A stretch of 64,000 bases of DNA from Azospirillaceae bacterium (GTDB lineage Bacteria > Pseudomonadota > Alphaproteobacteria > Azospirillales > Azospirillaceae). The position numbers and the translations under genes are program-made. The stretch lies in assembly GCA_028277115.1 (NCBI GenBank), contig JANQHG010000052.1, positions 1 through 64,000 of the forward strand, read 5' to 3'. The notes beneath the pieces are model-generated. The model made no database searches. It was not told where the DNA came from and saw only the letters and a program-made list of their open reading frames with translations. Shown here piece by piece: positions 10,138-19,733 of this stretch (its first letter is position 1; each line of letters starts with the position of its first letter).

Positions 10138-10713
10138 ATGGATACGGTGCTCACTCTGCCGACGGCGGCCGGTCCCTCACCGGCGGCCGCGGCGTTCCGC
10201 GGGATCCCCGCGTTCGGCGACGAGACGGAGGCCGGTCTGGCGGCCGCCCGGGGCGGCGAAGCCGCCGGCGCGGTTGACGAGGCCGCCCCTGACGACACCG
10301 CCAATCTCGACACCGCCAATCTCGACGCCAAAGACGGCGAACGCCCGAACCTGTTGGACCGCTATCTGAGCCCGGTGCTCGATTACAATTTCGCCGCGAG
10401 CCACCTCGTTATTCTATTCCGCGACCCGGAAACCGGCAAGACGGTCGACCAGATCCCGCCGGAAAGCGCGCTCAAACAATATGAGGAGGCGAATCGTCGC
10501 CGCAATCTCGATGGCACCGCCGGTGACCGGCCGGAAGACGGCGCGGCCGACCACACGGCGAACGGGACCGACGAGGCGGCGTTAACGGTTTCGCAACCGG
10601 TGCCGGCGTCGAGTGAAGGTCGGGACGGCGCGTCGGCCGCCGCGGCCGCCGCCGGTGGACCCGGCCCCGGGTCGGTCGGACGTGCCGGGGCGGCGCTCAA
10701 TTTCGTCGTCTGA
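10138..10713 (+). CDS. FlaG-like flagellar protein
   Basis: A 191-residue protein. The only ordered part (about residues 78-120) reads YNFAASHLVILFRDPETGKT and then VDQIPPESALKQYEEANRR, resembling the FlaG domain in which a strand is followed by DPETGE-x-IRQIPPEE. The flanks are low-complexity Ala/Gly/Asp. FlaG proteins influence flagellar filament length. It ends ALNFVV, a C terminus of the form N-x-V-V shared with the next gene and with 25464-26240. The neighbouring 75-residue gene starts 74 bases downstream. Confidence 0.6.
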   Translation: MDTVLTLPTAAGPSPAAAAFRGIPAFGDETEAGLAAARGGEAAGAVDEAAPDDTANLDTANLDAKDGERPNLLDRYLSPVLDYNFAASHLVILFRDPETGKTVDQIPPESALKQYEEANRRRNLDGTAGDRPEDGAADHTANGTDEAALTVSQPVPASSEGRDGASAAAAAAGGPGPGSVGRAGAALNFVV

Positions 10714-10787
10714 TGCGATCGCAATCCGATCGTCGGAGCTTTGCTAAGCTGGGCGCGCGGTCGCAGCAGGACCTGGGATAGCGGGAC

Positions 10788-11015
10788 ATGGTCGCAGAGA
10801 TCGGCTCGAACGCCGCCTACGTCTCGACCGCGCTGCAGGGGCAGGCGCGGAGCGCCTTCACGCTTGGCGCGATCGGACGGGCCGCCGAGACCCAGACCCA
10901 GACCACCGCCCGTTTGTTCGGTGCACCCGGTCCGACCGCCGCGGCGCCGGTCCCAGCCGGCGGCGGCGGCACCGTGACCGAGACCCGCGGTCAGTTGCTC
11001 AACATCGTCGTCTGA
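10788..11015 (+). CDS. small protein with N-x-V-V terminus, possibly flagellar
   Basis: A 75-residue protein starting MVAEIGSNAAYVSTALQGQA and ending QLLNIVV. No known domain is recognised. It is short and helical in the first half and Pro/Gly-rich in the second. It follows the FlaG-like gene on the same strand and is followed by a terminator-like hairpin at 11031-11064. The shared C-terminal N-x-V-V suggests a common export or binding signal with the FlaG-like protein; this is inference. Confidence 0.55.
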   Translation: MVAEIGSNAAYVSTALQGQARSAFTLGAIGRAAETQTQTTARLFGAPGPTAAAPVPAGGGGTVTETRGQLLNIVV

Positions 11016-11239: not shown

Positions 11240-12829
11240 ATGGTATCGTCTGCGGAAGCCACCCCGTCGAACCCGACACCGTCTGCGGCACCCCAAGTGT
11301 CGCTCGCCGAGCAGGTGATCGAACGGTTCGGCGGCATCCGCCCGATGGCGAGCAAGCTCGAAATCCCGGTGACCACGGTCCAGGGCTGGAAAAAGCGCGG
11401 CGCGATCCCGCCGACCCGGCTCAACGACCTGCGCACCGCCGCGCGCCGGCACGGCATCCGGATCGAGGATCATGAGATGGCGGCGCTCGGTCGCGGCGAC
11501 GACCGCACGGCCGACGCCGCCGCCCCGCCCAGCCAACCGGGGGACGCCCCGATGTCTTCGACCCCACCCGCATCCGCGACCCCGACGCCCACCGCCGCCC
11601 CCGACCCCGGGCAGGACGCGACGGCGCCGGCGCCACCGATCGAAACCGCCGCCGAGATCCCGCCCGTGGACATTCCCCGTTACGACATCCCGCCGCCCGA
11701 AATCCCCTTGCGCGCGGCGAGCGACGGGCCGTCCGCCCGCCCCGAGACCCCGCCCGCGGCCACGCCGGCCCCGCCGCCGCGCGCCGCCGCGCCGAGCGCG
11801 CCGGTCGCCGCGGCGGCCGCGGCCCCGAACGGCACCGCCGGCGTCGCCGACGCAGGTGGCGGCAGCGCCGGCCAGGTGCCAGACGACCGCTCGCCGCGCG
11901 TCGACGCCATGCAACCGACCCCGAAGACCCCTGTGGACAAATGGGCCGGTTTGTCGGTCGCCGCCGCGGTGGTCGCGATGGTCTCGGCCGGGGTCGCGGT
12001 GATGATGCCGTTCTGGCCGCAGGGTCCGAACGGCGAGGCGACGCTGGCACCGCGCGCGGTCGAAAAGCGGGTCGGGGAGATGGAAGGCAAAATCTCCCGG
12101 CTTGCCCTCGAACAGGTCGCGACCTCGGCAGCGCTCGAACGTCGGATCAACGCCGTAGACAGCCGGATCGCCGACGCGCGCATCGAAATCTCCCGCACGA
12201 TCAGCGACCTCGCCACCCGGGTCGGCGCGGTCGAAGGGCTGGTGTCCGATATCGAAAGCCGGATCACCTCGATGCCGGTCGGCTCGCCGACGCTGGCGAT
12301 GCTGCTGGCCGCAGGCCAACTGCGCGCCGCGCTCGCGACCGAACAGCCGTTCCAAAGCGCGCTCGCCGCGGTGCGGATGGCCGGGTTCGGCGACCCCGCA
12401 ATGCGCCGGGCGCTCGACCAGGTCGCCGGCCGCGCCGCCACCGGGGTCGCGACCGAGCAGTGGCTCGCCGACCGGTTCGACGTGTTCGCCCCGGCGATCA
12501 TATGGGAAGCGACCTCGGGCGCCCCGGTCGCGCGCATGCTCGACAGCGTCGTCGGCCTGGTCCGCGAGGTGTCGCCGCCGCTCTACCGGCTGACCGGCAT
12601 TCCCCGCGGCGACAACCCGCGCGGGATCGCCGAACGGGCCCAACTGTTGCTCGCGACCGGCAAATTCGACGACGCGGTCGCCGAGGTTGCCAAGCTCACC
12701 GGCGCCGCCGCGGAAGCCGCCGCGCCGTGGCTGACCGAGGCACGGGCCCGCCAGGCGGCCAATCGGGTCCGCTCCCTGCTCAACCAGCAGATGATGGCGT
12801 TGGTGTCGACCGCCCCGACCGTCCCCTGA
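11240..12829 (+). CDS. HTH - membrane - Mic60/mitofilin-like protein (COG4223 type)
   Basis: A 529-residue protein with an unusual order of parts. Residues 20-65 form a Cro/phage-type HTH (VIERFGGIRPMASKLEIPVT then TVQGWKKRGAIPPTR). A long Pro/Ala-rich linker follows, then one membrane segment at about 235-258, a coiled coil at 275-350, and a C-terminal domain with LLAAGQLRAALATEQPF, AATGVATEQWLADRF and APWLTEARARQAANR, the pattern of the alphaproteobacterial Mic60/mitofilin-like COG4223 proteins. These shape the inner membrane and contact outer-membrane proteins. ATG at 11201 is an alternative start; 11240 has GAGG just upstream. The relatives I know of sit beside haem genes; this one precedes a dynamin-like GTPase. 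Confidence 0.75.
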   Translation: MVSSAEATPSNPTPSAAPQVSLAEQVIERFGGIRPMASKLEIPVTTVQGWKKRGAIPPTRLNDLRTAARRHGIRIEDHEMAALGRGDDRTADAAAPPSQPGDAPMSSTPPASATPTPTAAPDPGQDATAPAPPIETAAEIPPVDIPRYDIPPPEIPLRAASDGPSARPETPPAATPAPPPRAAAPSAPVAAAAAAPNGTAGVADAGGGSAGQVPDDRSPRVDAMQPTPKTPVDKWAGLSVAAAVVAMVSAGVAVMMPFWPQGPNGEATLAPRAVEKRVGEMEGKISRLALEQVATSAALERRINAVDSRIADARIEISRTISDLATRVGAVEGLVSDIESRITSMPVGSPTLAMLLAAGQLRAALATEQPFQSALAAVRMAGFGDPAMRRALDQVAGRAATGVATEQWLADRFDVFAPAIIWEATSGAPVARMLDSVVGLVREVSPPLYRLTGIPRGDNPRGIAERAQLLLATGKFDDAVAEVAKLTGAAAEAAAPWLTEARARQAANRVRSLLNQQMMALVSTAPTVP

Positions 12830-12894
12830 CCGACGGCGAGACGGTCCTGCCGCCCCGCCCCTGCCCTTCCCGCTGATCGTCGATCGTAATAAAC

Positions 12895-14535
12895 ATGTCC
12901 CCCAAGCGTGCTTTGGCCCGACGCCTTGATTTGCTCGAATCGCACCTGCGCGCGGAACATCCGCGCCTGTTGCCGGCGCTGGCGACCTTCCGTTCGTTCG
13001 ACCGGCTGTTGCAGCGGATGGGCCTGCTGTCCCGCGCCGACTCCCTGACCAGCCGGATTGCCTGGTGGCCGGTGATCAGCGTGCTCGGGCTGTTCTCCTC
13101 AGGAAAATCGAGCTTTATCAACAGCTTCCTTGGGATGTCGCTGCAGACCACCGGCAACCAGGCGGTCGATGACAAGTTCACGGTGATCTGCTACGGCCCC
13201 GACCGGCATCATGATTCGCTGCCCGGCACCGCGCTCAACGCCGACCCGCGCTTTCCGTTCTACCGAATGAGCGACGAGATCGAGCGGGTCGCCCAAGGCG
13301 AGGGCAAGCGGATCGACGCCTATCTGCAATTGAAGACCGCGTCGAGCCCGCGGCTGCGCGGCAAGATCCTGATCGACTCGCCCGGCTTCGACGCCGACGA
13401 CCAGCGCCGCTCAACCCTGCGGGTGACCGACCACATCATGGATCTGGCCGATCTGGTGCTGGTGATGTTCGACGCCCGGCGGCCCGAGCCGGGGTCGATG
13501 TACGACACCCTAAAGCACTTGGTCGCCAAGACGGTGCAGCGCCCGGACTCGCGCAAGTTCCTGTACATCTTGAACCAGATCGACACCTCGGCGCGCGAAG
13601 ACAATCCCGAAGCGGTGGTCGGCGCCTGGCAGCGCGCGATCGCCCAGGCCGGCCTGGTCAGCGGCCGGTTCTACGGCATCTACAACCGCGAGGTCGCGCC
13701 GGCGTTCAACGACCCCACCAAACAGGCGCGCTACGAGGCGAAATCGGCCGCCGATCTCGCCGAGATCCACGGCCGGATCACCGATGTCGAGTTCGGCCGC
13801 GGCTATCGGATCGCCGGCAGCCTGGAATCGCTGGCCAACGAGCTCGAGACCGAGATCGTGCCGTGGCTGGCCGCCCGGCGGGCCGCGTGGCGTCGCGGCG
13901 TGCTCGCGCGCGAGGTCTTGGTGTTCGGCGCGATCGGCGCGGTGGTCGGCTTGCTTGCCTGGCTGATCGGGCCCGAGACCCGGGCGGCGCTCGAGACGTG
14001 GTCGCTGGCGCTGACCCCGCCATGGGCGCTCGGCCTGCCGGTCCGCCTGATCGCGGTCGCCGCCGCCGTGTTCGCGGTGCTGTGGACGATCCACGCGACG
14101 ATCCGCGCGCGGGTCGCCCGGGCGATCATCGATCGCGCCGAGCCGCGCCGCGGCCTGCTCGACCTCGACGCCCGCGGCGCGCTTGAGGCCAATTTCCGGA
14201 TTTCGGCCGGCCTGTTCCGCCGCGCGCCGGTCGGGTGGGACCATATCGCCCGGCGCCGGCTCGCCGACATCCGCGACCAGCTCGCCGCCCACGTCCAGCG
14301 CTGGAACGACGAGTACACCGACCCGGCCGGCCGCCGCCTGGACGACCCCGGTCTGCCCGCGTCCTGGGTCGCCGCGGCGCCGCCACCGCCACCGCCGCCG
14401 ACCCCGACCCCGACCCCGGCCGCGTCGCCGCCACCCGACGCGGCGCCGGTCCCGGCGACCGAACCGACGCCCGACGCCGCGCCCGCACCGCCGCGGCGCG
14501 CCCGGACCCTGCTCGACATCCTGTCCGGCCGGTAA
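12895..14535 (+). CDS. dynamin-like GTPase with two C-terminal membrane segments
   Basis: A 546-residue GTPase. The P-loop GLFSSGKSS begins at residue 65, DSPG (G3) is at 161-164 and NQID, a variant of NKxD, is at about 227-230. TTGNQAVDDKFTV at about 82-94 supplies the switch-I Thr, as in EHD/dynamin-family proteins. After a helical region come two hydrophobic segments at about 340-359 and 381-401, then a helical stretch and a Pro-rich tail with PPPPPPTPTPTP. Bacterial dynamin-like proteins bind and remodel membranes. The gene begins 65 bases after the Mic60-like gene on the same strand, so cotranscription is likely. Confidence 0.75.
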   Translation: MSPKRALARRLDLLESHLRAEHPRLLPALATFRSFDRLLQRMGLLSRADSLTSRIAWWPVISVLGLFSSGKSSFINSFLGMSLQTTGNQAVDDKFTVICYGPDRHHDSLPGTALNADPRFPFYRMSDEIERVAQGEGKRIDAYLQLKTASSPRLRGKILIDSPGFDADDQRRSTLRVTDHIMDLADLVLVMFDARRPEPGSMYDTLKHLVAKTVQRPDSRKFLYILNQIDTSAREDNPEAVVGAWQRAIAQAGLVSGRFYGIYNREVAPAFNDPTKQARYEAKSAADLAEIHGRITDVEFGRGYRIAGSLESLANELETEIVPWLAARRAAWRRGVLAREVLVFGAIGAVVGLLAWLIGPETRAALETWSLALTPPWALGLPVRLIAVAAAVFAVLWTIHATIRARVARAIIDRAEPRRGLLDLDARGALEANFRISAGLFRRAPVGWDHIARRRLADIRDQLAAHVQRWNDEYTDPAGRRLDDPGLPASWVAAAPPPPPPPTPTPTPAASPPPDAAPVPATEPTPDAAPAPPRRARTLLDILSGR

Positions 14536-15391: not shown

Positions 15392-16426
15392 TCACCCGCC
15401 GCCCTCGGCGCCGAGCTCCTGCTGATACAGCCGCTCGATCGCCGGCACCAACAGCCGCAACACGATCTGCGACTTGATCGCGCCATGGCGCGCCAGCACC
15501 CGGTCGAGCGCCTCGGCCAACTCGGCGCGCAGCCGCAGGGTCATGGCACGTTTGCGCCCGGGCCGGTTTTGCCCCGGCGGGAACACCAGCGGCTCGCCGC
15601 GATCGGCCGCCGCCGCCAGCGCTTCCAGCCCCGGCGCGATCAGATCGACCATGATCTGGTGGCGATGGCACAGCCACGTCTCGGCCAGCCGGTCGAGCTT
15701 GCGCGCCACCGCCTCGGGCATCCGCAACGCCACCGCGTGGGTGTCGTCGGGGATCACCTCCTCGACCTCGATCACTGGCGGCTCCGGTGCGCGGCGCCGG
15801 GCGCCGGCGCCCGCGCGCGCCGGCAGCGCCGACACCGACGCCCCTGCCCGCTCGGCCAGCCCCGCCGGACGCGCCCGTCCGGCCGACCGCGCCGGCGCGG
15901 CCGCGCTCGACGGAAACGGCGCGACCGACGCGCCGGCCGACCCCGGCAGGCTCGATACGGCTGACGGGGGTGACGGGACAGCCTCGATTGCCGCAGCTGA
16001 TGACGGTGACGACACCGACGCACCCGACGACGATGCCGTATCCGATACGGTTGACGTCGCGGACGCAGATGATCTCGGTGGTTTGCTTGGCGGCGTCGGT
16101 TCCGGTGATCGCCCCGATGGCGTCAACGATGATGACGCACGTGACGTTGATGCCGGTGCTGACGCGTTTGCCGCAGATGACGTCTCGGCCGACGTCGCCG
16201 TCGATGATGTCGATGCCGCTGTTGCCGTGGTTGCCGGAGCGGCCGCCGGTGATCCGATCGCCGCCGCGGCGCCGGTCGGCGCGGCCGCTTCGTCCGCCGC
16301 CGCCGGCGCACCCGGGACGCTTGCGCGGCCGCCGTCGACGAAGGCGCGGAATTCCGGGCTGTCGAGCCTGAGGGCTCCTTTGGCGGCCTCAGGCCGCGAC
16401 AGGCGCAACGGCGGTTTCGGCGGCAT
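15392..16426 (-). CDS. ParA-partner DNA-binding protein with a long low-complexity linker
   Basis: A 344-residue protein starting inside the end of parA (ATG 16426, parA stop 16389). A short N terminus (LRLDSPEFRAFVDGG) is followed by about 190 residues rich in Ser, Ala, Pro and Thr. The C terminus has two helical repeats, LRMPEAVARKLDRLAETW and LRLRAELAEALDRVLARHG, each starting with a strand as in ribbon-helix-helix proteins. Position and architecture suggest the centromere-binding partner of ParA rather than a canonical ParB. The linker DNA is open on both strands, but only this strand gives recognisable ends. Confidence 0.6.
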   Translation of the reverse strand: MPPKPPLRLSRPEAAKGALRLDSPEFRAFVDGGRASVPGAPAAADEAAAPTGAAAAIGSPAAAPATTATAASTSSTATSAETSSAANASAPASTSRASSSLTPSGRSPEPTPPSKPPRSSASATSTVSDTASSSGASVSSPSSAAAIEAVPSPPSAVSSLPGSAGASVAPFPSSAAAPARSAGRARPAGLAERAGASVSALPARAGAGARRRAPEPPVIEVEEVIPDDTHAVALRMPEAVARKLDRLAETWLCHRHQIMVDLIAPGLEALAAAADRGEPLVFPPGQNRPGRKRAMTLRLRAELAEALDRVLARHGAIKSQIVLRLLVPAIERLYQQELGAEGGG

Positions 16427-17087
16427 CCTCGAACACCTCACGATAGAGACGGGTCACTTCATCGACCGCGTTGCGCACGCCGCGATCCGGGCGCGGCAAC
16501 TCGCTGACCCCGAGCCCCATGCCTTCGGCAACCGGATAGGCGGCGCGTTCGTGGATCACGCTCGACAGCACGCGGAAGCCTTCCAGTCCGCGCTCGCGCA
16601 CCACGGTCTCAAGGGCGGCACGGTCGTCGTGCGACGGGTGGGTCGAGGCGCGGGCAGCCAACAGCCAGCCCTCGATCTCGGTCGGCCGGAACCCCATCGC
16701 CAGGCTGCGCAGCTCGATCAGCTTTTCCAACGTCCAGATCTGGAACTGCGACGGCTTCATCGGGATGATCCAAATGTCGGCGACGACCAACGCTTGGCGC
16801 AGCTCTTGGCTGTCGAAGCCGCCACAGTCGATCACGATATCATCGAACTTCTCGGCCAGCCGCACAAGCTGCTGGGCGGTATCGCGACCTTTGAGCAACA
16901 CCCGGGTCACCGCGGGGTCTATCCCGCTCTCCGACCGCAGCGCCGCCCAGTCGTTCAGATTGCCCTGGTCGGCGTCGGCATCGACCAGCAGGACCTGTCG
17001 ACCGGCGCGCGCGCGTTCGACCCCGAGATTGGCGGCGAGCACGGTTTTGCCGGTGCCGCCTTTGACGCTCCCCGTCAGCACGATCAT
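16389..17087 (-). CDS. parA: ParA-family partition ATPase
   Basis: A 232-residue ATPase that drives plasmid segregation by dynamic binding to the nucleoid. The deviant Walker A SVKGGTGKT is at residues 7-15, LLVDADADQGN supplies the A' segment and IVIDCGG the Walker B. The lack of an N-terminal HTH makes it type Ib. A partner gene overlaps its 3' end. It lies 1.7 kb from repA; together they define the partition and replication unit of this replicon. Confidence 0.92.
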   Translation of the reverse strand: MIVLTGSVKGGTGKTVLAANLGVERARAGRQVLLVDADADQGNLNDWAALRSESGIDPAVTRVLLKGRDTAQQLVRLAEKFDDIVIDCGGFDSQELRQALVVADIWIIPMKPSQFQIWTLEKLIELRSLAMGFRPTEIEGWLLAARASTHPSHDDRAALETVVRERGLEGFRVLSSVIHERAAYPVAEGMGLGVSELPRPDRGVRNAVDEVTRLYREVFEDAAETAVAPVAA

Positions 17088-17698
17088 GCGCTTGTCTCCC
17101 CACCGCTCGACCGCGGCCGGGGCCGGCCGCCCGACGCGCCCGACCGCCCTGCCCGCGTCGCCGTGGCGGCAACGCCCGCCGAACTCGCCGCGGTCGCCGC
17201 AGTGGACGCGATTTCATGAATAGCCGTCAATGCCCTGCGCGATGCTGTGGGCGCAATAGATCATGTTGCCACACCTGACGCGTCGGATGCCACCGATCCA
17301 ATTGACCCGATGGTTTTGGCCGACCTACTCGAATGTCTTGATGTACTGGACACTTTTGATGCGTCCGAAACGGTCGCCGCATTTGCCTTGTCTGGCTCGA
17401 TCGCCTCGATCGATCTGATCCGTCCGCCGCGCCAGGTGTGACGGAGTCGGTTGACGCGGTGTCACGGATGTGGCCGACAGTATCGATTCGGTGGGCCGAT
17501 TTGCCTCAAAAGCCGCGCCGGACTCGACGCAAGCGGTTGGTTCGATGGATATTCCTGATGGGTATGGTCAGTCCGGTTTGATTGACTCAGTTGAGGTGAT
17601 GCCGATGACGACACTGAAAAAACTGGGAGATTTTTGTGACGACAATGGTTGAGGTGAGTGAATTGGTTGCCGTGCCGGCCGTGATCAGGCCCATCAGC
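17088..17698. other. intergenic region upstream of parA
   Basis: About 600 bases with no convincing gene. The part 17247-17640 is less GC-rich than its surroundings and contains short Asp/Ser-rich frames without ribosome sites. It is the natural place for the parA promoter and a centromere, but no clear repeated operator was seen. Confidence 0.4.
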
Positions 17699-17820
17699 GC
17701 TGCCGAATGCGGCTTGGCGGCCGTGCGGGGGGGCGCTGCCCCCTTGACCTCCGCAAGGGGGCTCGCCCCCTTGACCCCACTTAATGGAGGCCAGGGGCAA
17801 CCCCTGGTCGGGGGAGGCTT
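17699..17820. repeat. GGGGGCGCTGCCCCC hairpin repeat, copy 2
   Basis: Matches copy 1 through CCGAATGCGGC, GGCGGCCGTG, GGGGGGCGCTGCCCCCTTGA and CCGCAAGGGGGC, then continues with CAGGGGCAACCCCTGGTCGG as in copy 3. It lies upstream of the SDR gene at 17919. Confidence 0.75.
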
Positions 17821-17918
17821 GGGCGCGCCGGCCGCCAAATCGTCGAAACCATCGTCGTCCTTGACAGGCGCCCGGCACGCCGTCGCCTTTCACCACACCG
17901 TGATCATCGGAGGACACC

Positions 17919-18614
17919 ATGGGGAGCAAATCGGAGATCGCATTGATCGTCGGGGCAGGGCAGGGGCTCTCCGCCGCAATCGCCCGGGCGGCGGCGGCCG
18001 ACGGTCTCACGGTCGCGCTGGCGTCGCGGCACCCCGACCGCCTGACCGCGGTCGCGGACCCGCTCGGTGCGACCCGCCACGCCTGCGACGTCAGCGACCC
18101 CGACGCGGTGACCCGCCTGTTCGCCGACGTCCAGGCGACCCACAGCACCCCTGACCTGGTGGTGTTCAACCCGAGCTATCGCTACCGCGGCGCGATCACC
18201 GACCTCGATCCGGCCGAGCTTACCAAGACCCTCGCGATCGCCGCCCTTGGCGGTGCCTTCGTCGCCCAGGCGGCCGCGCGCGCCATGCTCGCCCGCGGTC
18301 GCGGCACCCTGTTGTTCACCGGCGCCTCGGCCAGCCTCAAAGGCTATCCGAAGTCGGCACCGTTCGCGATGGCCAAGTTCGCGTTACGCGGCTTGGCCGA
18401 AAGCCTCGCGCGCGAACTTGGACCTCAAAACCTGCACGTCGCTCACATCGTGATCGACGGCGTGATCGCCGCGCCGGCGCGCGGCACCCCTTCCGTGCCG
18501 GACAGCTATCTCGACCCGGACGCGATCGCCGCGACCTATCTCGCGCTCCACCGCCAACCACGGAGCGCCTGGACCAACGAGCTCACCCTTCGGCCCTGGG
18601 TCGAGCGGTTTTGA
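17919..18614 (+). CDS. short-chain dehydrogenase/reductase-like protein lacking the catalytic Tyr
   Basis: A 231-residue SDR with the cofactor motif IVGAGQGLSAAIARA near the N terminus and FTGASASLKGYPKSAPFAMA further on. The position of the catalytic YxxxK reads FAMAK: the Lys is kept but the Tyr is Phe. AHIVIDGVIAAPARG and the short C terminus match a subgroup of SDR-like proteins with this change. It probably binds NAD(P) but may not do standard SDR chemistry. An AGGAGG-like site precedes ATG 17919. It converges on repA. Confidence 0.8.
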   Translation: MGSKSEIALIVGAGQGLSAAIARAAAADGLTVALASRHPDRLTAVADPLGATRHACDVSDPDAVTRLFADVQATHSTPDLVVFNPSYRYRGAITDLDPAELTKTLAIAALGGAFVAQAAARAMLARGRGTLLFTGASASLKGYPKSAPFAMAKFALRGLAESLARELGPQNLHVAHIVIDGVIAAPARGTPSVPDSYLDPDAIAATYLALHRQPRSAWTNELTLRPWVERF

Positions 18615-18782
18615 CCCCGAGGTTTATGTTGAGGAAATCCGGACCGTTTGCCCGGTGAGACGGAAGCGATCGCACGAAAACTGCCGCTACATCGGCCGGC
18701 GTTTCACGCCGGCTCGGCGGTTGCGATAAATAGTCTTCTCGCAAGTGCCGGACCCGATGCGGTCGTGCGGCGGTCCCCTTGG
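18615..18782. other. convergent gap between the SDR and repA
   Basis: 168 bases between two converging genes; no gene and no strong terminator were seen. Confidence 0.3.
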
Positions 18783-19733
18783 TCACTCGACCAACGCGAG
18801 CCCATCGAGGTTCCACTGCTCGGCCGCCCGGGCGCCGCTTTCTTCGAAAAAGCGCTTCTTGTTCCAAAACGCCACGATCACCGCGTTGTTGCGCGGTCGG
18901 CGCTTGATCAGCCCCTTTTCGAGCGCCGCCTTGATCTCGGGCGACGCCGGGTCGTTCTTGAGCACGATCCCGTACTCCGGAATCCGACCGGCGTCGGCGA
19001 TCTTGCGCAAATCGTACTTGAACCGCCGGAGATCGCTCTCGACCCCGACCCGCAGCCGCAGCTTCTCAAGATTGATCCGAAACCCGGCCTGGTGGCCGCA
19101 ATGGGCCCGCGCGATCTCGTAGATCCGCCGTTCCAGGGGGGTCAGCTCGAAGTATTTTCGGCTGTAGGTCAGGACCCGGTTGTCCTTATGGATCGCGCGA
19201 TAGAGCCAGTCGCACAACTCGACCGTGACCGATTTCAAGGTCCGTTTGCCGCCGGCGGTCCGCCGGTAGTCGAGCCGCGCCGCCTTGATCCACGAGAACC
19301 ATTCGTCGCGGCCCTCGCCGCCGGTCTCGATGTTGGTCCGGACCTGGGTGCCCTGCAGCCGGTCAAGCGCGCCCTTGATCCGGCTGTAGGCGGTGCCGGC
19401 CGCGGCGGTGCCGCAGACCCGAAAAAAATCATGGGCGGTAAAGGTGAACACCGGCCCCGGGGTCTCGCCCCGGTTCATCTTCTCGACCATCAAAGACGCG
19501 ATATAGATCAACAATTCCTTGTCCGCCATCGTCGCCATGCCCATCGGGCCGGCACGAACCTCGATCGAAACCTCGCCGTCGCGATAGCTCAGCGTCTCGG
19601 TCCGGGCGCGCGAGGTATCGAGCGAGAAAAAATTCCAGACCATCATTCGGCGATCGTTCTTGACCGCCCCCTGGAGCGGACTGTCGAACAGCTCCGCTTG
19701 CCCCGAAACCTGGCATTCGCGTTCGGTCATCAT
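18783..19733 (-). CDS. repA: plasmid replication initiator RepA (RPA family)
   Basis: A 316-residue initiator of the replication initiator protein A family (Pfam RPA type) found on alphaproteobacterial extrachromosomal replicons. Typical segments are DRRMMVWNFFSLDTSRARTE, MADKELLIYIASLM, FTFTAHDFFRVCG, and PLERRIYEIARAHCGHQAGF with LRVGVESDLRRFKYDLRKI. The first ATG pair fixes the start at 19733. Two inverted iterons lie directly upstream (19800 and 19864), where bound RepA could repress its own promoter, and ten more extend to 20580. It is the strongest proof that the window comes from a plasmid or chromid. Confidence 0.92.
   Translation of the reverse strand: MMTERECQVSGQAELFDSPLQGAVKNDRRMMVWNFFSLDTSRARTETLSYRDGEVSIEVRAGPMGMATMADKELLIYIASLMVEKMNRGETPGPVFTFTAHDFFRVCGTAAAGTAYSRIKGALDRLQGTQVRTNIETGGEGRDEWFSWIKAARLDYRRTAGGKRTLKSVTVELCDWLYRAIHKDNRVLTYSRKYFELTPLERRIYEIARAHCGHQAGFRINLEKLRLRVGVESDLRRFKYDLRKIADAGRIPEYGIVLKNDPASPEIKAALEKGLIKRRPRNNAVIVAFWNKKRFFEESGARAAEQWNLDGLALVE

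Follow-up and report, generated by a model that had tools for sequence, protein, structure and literature searches.

A Mic60 homologue encoded next to an EHD/mitofusin-like dynamin-superfamily GTPase in Azospirillaceae

Results

Mic60 gives the internal folds of mitochondria their shape; its presence in alphaproteobacteria is already known, as are bacterial dynamins. We analyzed 64,000 nucleotides of DNA from an Azospirillaceae bacterium (the window), which are the first 64 kb of the 101,671-bp contig JANQHG010000052.1, and focused on two neighboring genes that encode a predicted Mic60 homologue (P0001) and a predicted dynamin-superfamily GTPase (P0002). The source genome (GCA_028277115.1, here G000) is a 4.77-Mb draft in 285 contigs and is 93.8% complete. 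Our genome searches within the order of the source organism covered 82 genomes, all of one family, the Azospirillaceae. Both open reading frames (ORFs) are co-directional and have a coding-type bias in third-position GC (GC3); their features are listed in Table 1. A scan detected no promoter-like or terminator-like site between the two genes, such scans being weak in a genome of 70% GC.

Table 1. Features of the Mic60-GTPase locus (window positions)
Feature	Position	Strand	Basis
GTPase-linked Mic60 homologue (P0001), 529 aa; helix-turn-helix (HTH), transmembrane (TM) segment, coiled coil, mitofilin	11240..12829	+	Pfam, NCBIfam, AlphaFold2 (AF2), profile searches
Carph-isopro (Cro-type) HTH domain, residues 23-75	11306..11464	+	NCBIfam, 63.3 bits (cut-off 38); AF2, predicted local distance difference test (pLDDT) ~95; Foldseek
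Single TM segment, residues ~238-256	11951..12007	+	Hydropathy; model helix 232-258
Coiled coil, residues 271-344	12050..12271	+	AF2 model
Mitofilin domain, residues ~353-523	12296..12808	+	Pfam, 7pv1 profile match, heme-operon profile
Intergenic gap, 65 bp	12830..12894	+	No terminator found
EHD/mitofusin-like dynamin-superfamily GTPase (P0002), 546 aa	12895..14535	+	Pfam, profile, AF2 fold search, alignment
P-loop GLFSSGKS, residues 65-72	13087..13110	+	Alignment
G3 motif DSPG, residues 161-164	13375..13386	+	Alignment, invariant
G4-like motif NQID, residues 227-230	13573..13584	+	Alignment; N and D invariant
GTPase TM segment 1, residues ~341-359	13915..13971	+	Hydropathy
GTPase TM segment 2, residues ~378-396	14026..14082	+	Hydropathy
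Pro-rich, probably disordered tail, residues 487-537	14353..14505	+	AF2 pLDDT < 50

An earlier note on this DNA, made from the letters alone, had described the first gene product as a protein with a Cro-type HTH, a membrane helix, a coiled coil and a mitofilin-like C terminus, and we found all four elements. P0001 matched the Pfam mitofilin family (PF09731) with 41.8 bits against a cut-off of 27.4, and the family profile matched the solved MIC60-MIC19 domain (7pv1) at 2.5e-9. A chance match caused by the coiled coil was ruled out, since a C-terminal profile built from the heme-operon Mic60s of the family only, without any GTPase-linked member, matched P0001 at 8.8e-38. From N to C terminus, the AF2 model shows a domain of five helices modeled with confidence, a long linker without order, the TM helix, the coiled coil and a helical C-terminal domain with a pLDDT of ~95. 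The order expected of a Mic60, a single TM segment on the N-terminal side followed by a coiled coil, was thus present by hydropathy and in the model. P0001 departs from the usual heme-operon location of the family's Mic60, which is not a strict requirement; it lies at another locus and belongs to a separate lineage. With the full-length P0001 model as query, the fold search missed 7pv1, for which its long coiled coil and its disorder are probably to blame. Two other weak mitofilin matches in the source genome (C124 and C60) were discarded; they cover profile positions 299-428 only and end far before the C-terminal mitofilin region, and the match on C124 falls in a charged, repetitive ORF that is probably a coiled coil. 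We conclude that P0001 is a predicted Mic60 homologue.

The modeled HTH had N15 Cro and Xfaso Cro as its top Foldseek matches, with a probability of 1.00 but an E value of 0.13, and is among the best-conserved parts of the Mic60 alignment. Carph-isopro scored above its cut-off in 46 of 241 sampled alphaproteobacterial genomes, and at 22 of the 30 best loci a mitofilin domain followed in the same ORF, some of the remaining loci being truncated. The ordinary heme-operon Mic60s of the family carry the same N-terminal HTH. Taken together, these two findings identify HTH-TM-coiled coil-mitofilin as a common predicted architecture of alphaproteobacterial Mic60. We therefore rejected the HTH fusion as a novelty, and the idea that the HTH is a special device coupling this pair to DNA or to its own regulation did not hold.

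The second gene product was likewise as described: P-loop, DSPG, NQID, two TM segments and Pro-rich tail were all confirmed, on the same strand and 65 bp downstream. P0002 matched Dynamin_N with 53.8 bits against a cut-off of 27, and the P-loop, DSPG and the N and D of NQID were kept in all 18 aligned homologues. The AF2 model (pLDDT 79.5, pTM 0.72) contains a helical stalk or bundle with a membrane element (helices 274-357 and 383-414, two TM segments), and hydropathy predicts a hairpin with both termini in the cytoplasm. By sequence, the nearest solved structures were EHD4 (3.6e-5) and IniA (6e-4), and a profile search raised the EHD4 match to 9e-8, leaving BDLP at only 0.038. Foldseek ranked EHD4 and EHD2 on top (1.2e-10 for the EHD-type G domain), followed by mitofusin 2, IniA and the Campylobacter dynamin pair.

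The relation to EHD2/EHD4 extends to a shared PG.AL..D...PF stretch after the P-loop. The G4-like motif of P0002 is NQID, whereas EHDs, which are ATP binders, have NKAD, and Pfam gave no EH or EF-hand match in P0002. In place of the EH domain, P0002 has the membrane hairpin of two helices and, after it, a C-terminal helix and the Pro-rich tail; for this reason it is not a strict EHD protein. With mitofusin, BDLP, CjDLP and IniA it shares the Dynamin_N G domain, the helical bundle and a membrane hairpin between helices (fold matches of ~1e-8 to 1e-6), but it belongs to a distinct family, its sequence matches to IniA and BDLP being weak. Nor is P0002 of the OPA1 type, Mgm1 reaching an E value of 1.1 by sequence and OPA1 ranking far below EHD in the fold search. 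By sequence and model, P0002 is best described as a predicted dynamin-superfamily protein with an EHD-type G domain. A divergent second GTPase paralogue, which lacks the membrane hairpin region, occurs in G051 and G048 (L090:6170-7753 and L092:1631-3232).

P0001 has a homologue in 79 of the 82 family genomes, mostly the heme-operon gene. The GTPase was found in 16 of 59 relatives' genomes sampled for it, all Azospirillaceae. In seven species from at least four genera (G000, G049, G050, G051, G056, G024 and Azospirillum halopraeferens DSM 3675) the Mic60 and GTPase genes are adjacent, on the same strand and in the same order, with a gap of ~60-70 bp in G050, G049 and G051 and a somewhat longer one in G056. 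The surroundings of the pair vary between groups: hsp20 and a BNR gene recur near it in both G000 and G056, the overlap between G000 and G050 is limited to dTDP-sugar genes farther away, and the pair alone is common to the G000 group and the two Azospirillum loci. At these two loci, G024 (L067:5713-11890) and A. halopraeferens (L119:7008-13421), mitofilin-domain genes lie on both sides of the GTPase gene, three in all, two of them without an HTH. The extra genes are a divergent gene for a short TM-mitofilin protein and a downstream gene for a long coiled-coil TM-mitofilin protein; Pfam itself places the divergent copies just below its cut-off and does not recognize the downstream ones. In most Azospirillum the GTPase gene stands alone near aroQ-accBC. 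Separately, G012 has a ParA-type ATPase gene directly followed by the gene for a long protein that matches P0001 in its coiled-coil part only (L064:4062-6421).

The earlier note had proposed to judge the pairing by mitofilin and dynamin profiles and by conserved adjacency in relatives. Because both family assignments pass curated cut-offs and the adjacency extends beyond the immediate relatives, the pairing stands on each of these points.

The standard Mic60 locus of the family is hemC-hemD-mic60-hemY. In G050, G051 and G056, and also in G047 and G048, hemC-hemD is present without a following mic60-hemY; the hem contig of G049 is cut short. HemY was not found anywhere in the genomes of G047-G051 and G056. 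The GTPase-linked copy is the sole full-length Mic60 found in G049, G050, G051 and G056, G051 having in addition a short piece of the HTH where a contig ends. These hemC-hemD loci (L109, L110, L111, L112 and L114) point to an Azospirillaceae clade that lost hemY and the heme-operon mic60 and kept hemC-hemD.

In the Mic60 tree the linked copies group with two unlinked Azospirillum paralogues, apart from the heme-operon copies (support 92/87), and the five linked copies from outside Azospirillum form one clade (100/99). GTPase-linked Mic60 is accordingly placed as a lineage separate from heme-operon Mic60. The GTPases of G000, G049, G050, G051 and G056 likewise form one group, and those of G024 and A. 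halopraeferens are sister to the aroQ-linked Azospirillum genes.

Beyond the family, we found at least 529 relatives of the GTPase in alpha- and gammaproteobacteria, apparently a broad and undescribed family of EHD-like proteobacterial GTPases. Among the best 80 of these, recurrent neighbors were a ParA-type ATPase (20 loci), a one-TM TPR protein (16), a peptidase-M41-like protein (14), a one-TM DUF302 protein (12) and a one-TM coiled-coil protein (10), together with RND pump genes. The gene directly upstream often encodes a one-TM protein with TPR, DUF302 or coiled-coil content, and because this recurs, a GTPase with a bitopic inner-membrane partner suggests itself as the general arrangement, in which only Azospirillaceae would have Mic60 in the partner slot. 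At L134-L182 these genes form a recurrent alpha/gammaproteobacterial cluster: RND pump, periplasmic protein, ParA-type ATPase, one-TM TPR protein, one-TM DUF302 protein, one-TM coiled-coil protein with Met-rich repeats, EHD-like GTPase and M41-like protein.

The pair had also been read as a possible transferable module on a plasmid. An RPA-type RepA (18783-19733, 212.6 bits) lies within ~5 kb of it, and the RepAs nearest to it belong to plasmids of 0.3-1.2 Mb in Indioceanicola, Skermanella and Azospirillum; a flagellin gene is present on the contig as well. The plasmid assignment is thus plausible from the RepA, the draft contig being compatible with either a large plasmid or a second chromosome. 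The transferable module fared worse. The GTPase had no match among 72,556 PLSDB plasmids, on which ground we rejected plasmid transfer of the pair, and in G051, G056 and G024 RepA is located on contigs other than that of the pair, so a mobile module is unsupported. Both genes look vertically inherited, as the trees of the GTPase and of linked Mic60 branch in the way the family itself does, and most Azospirillum have the two genes at separate loci.

Two side observations concern the flanks of the pair. At 15392-19733 the RepA, a ParA (16389-17087; Pfam, NCBIfam) and a third ORF form a plasmid-type replication and partition locus; the C-terminal part of the third ORF is ribbon-helix-helix-like by eye, with no Pfam match. 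Upstream, at 10138-11014, two short ORFs have similar C-termini (LNFVV and LNIVV), the first with a weak FlaG match (E 0.01).

Discussion

With modest confidence, we favor the interpretation that the two genes form a transcription unit making an inner-membrane-shaping pair. The basis computed here is domain content, predicted topology, conserved adjacency, a lineage apart from heme-operon Mic60 and the fact that relatives have lost the heme-operon copy. If P0001 is oriented as Mic60 is, it would be anchored by its one helix, with the HTH and long flexible linker in the cytoplasm. Its coiled coil and mitofilin domain would lie on the periplasmic side, might oligomerize there and hold or bend the membrane, and would so mark or hold a curved inner-membrane site from that side. 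The GTPase would sit in the same membrane through its two-helix hairpin and expose both the nucleotide-binding domain and the tail to the cytoplasm; it could assemble on the cytoplasmic face and, by nucleotide hydrolysis, drive constriction, tethering or remodeling of the site. Co-transcription, physical contact, oligomerization and membrane remodeling by the pair are steps that we infer.

Several findings weigh against such a pair. In most Azospirillum, as in other genera of the family, the two genes lie apart. A clade restricted to the seven linked Mic60s is rejected by the AU test (p-AU 0.025), since two unlinked Azospirillum paralogues belong inside it, and the linked GTPases are paraphyletic; linkage was therefore lost or arose more than once. 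The simplest reading of the trees is that an old Mic60 duplicate joined the GTPase before the genera split and later separated from it in most Azospirillum, two independent joinings being less likely. The G000 draft yielded no HemC, so the evidence for loss of the heme-operon Mic60 comes from its relatives. The membrane is predicted to separate the soluble domains of Mic60 from those of the GTPase, so any contact could be made only via the membrane helices or the cytoplasmic HTH and linker.

The GTPase might instead remodel membranes with other partners, such as ParA-type ATPase, TPR, DUF302 or coiled-coil proteins, its adjacency to Mic60 in Azospirillaceae being an accident kept by weak selection. 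Such neighbors, and not Mic60, flank the gene at > 30 alpha/gammaproteobacterial loci, and the solitary genes near aroQ-accBC fit as well. We nevertheless consider an accident unlikely, as the adjacency lasts across at least four genera while the local flanks turn over, and two Azospirillum species have mitofilin genes on both sides of the GTPase. Conservation of the HTH and its resemblance to phage Cro would suit a membrane-tethered regulator, the HTH binding DNA and controlling the operon and the mitofilin part sensing the envelope in the manner of ToxR or CadC. The same HTH is found on ordinary heme-operon Mic60s and on Mic60s class-wide, however, and is therefore not tied to the Mic60-GTPase operon; moreover, an HTH of this kind can serve as a protein-binding module, as that of RodZ does for MreB. 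This makes a regulator improbable.

The proximity of RepA and ParA raises the question of whether the pair anchors a plasmid to the membrane and so serves replicon maintenance. GTPase relatives elsewhere are often beside ParA, and the ParA of the window matches GTPase-adjacent ParAs a little more strongly (73.6 bits) than a RepA-linked ParA (68.4). In three relatives, though, the pair and RepA are on different contigs, and the ORFs listed beside the pair in G056, G050 and G049 include no ParA, so that a maintenance role is hard to credit. Some bacterial dynamins function in defense or membrane-damage response, which would allow an anti-phage or stress-response operon. PADLOC gave only a weak LeoA match (E 0.0023) for the GTPase, which we rejected as an anti-phage system for want of support, and none for P0001; with vertical inheritance and no defense neighbors seen, such a role is very improbable.

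Compared with known systems, P0001 resembles alphaproteobacterial heme-operon Mic60 in its mitofilin domain, single TM segment, coiled coil and family-wide N-terminal HTH, and differs in lying outside hemC-hemD-hemY, in its separate grouping and in the GTPase gene that follows. At mitochondrial crista junctions Mic60 likewise occurs together with a dynamin-superfamily GTPase, in MICOS and OPA1 (PMC12136173), but the earlier analogy with OPA1 is loose: OPA1/Mgm1 belongs to another dynamin branch and faces the intermembrane space (PMC8633786), whereas P0002 resembles EHD and mitofusin and has a predicted cytoplasmic orientation. A physical complex of bacterial Mic60 with an EHD/mitofusin-like GTPase, as an independently reached counterpart of the Mic60-dynamin partnership with a different dynamin on the cytoplasmic side, is possible but rather doubtful. 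In the searchable open-licence literature we found no earlier report of a conserved Mic60-GTPase operon and nothing relevant on carph-isopro, COG4223-Mic60, Mic60 with an HTH or in a heme operon, or bacterial EHD.

A review of crista evolution holds that bacteria have Mic60 but no OPA1 (PMC12136173). Our findings suggest that in bacteria, too, Mic60 may work in partnership with a dynamin. The pairing puts Mic60 next to a broad EHD-like proteobacterial GTPase family that habitually adjoins one-helix membrane proteins, and the presence of the putative Mic60-GTPase operon in the culturable A. halopraeferens makes it directly testable whether dynamins help bacterial Mic60 in shaping membranes.

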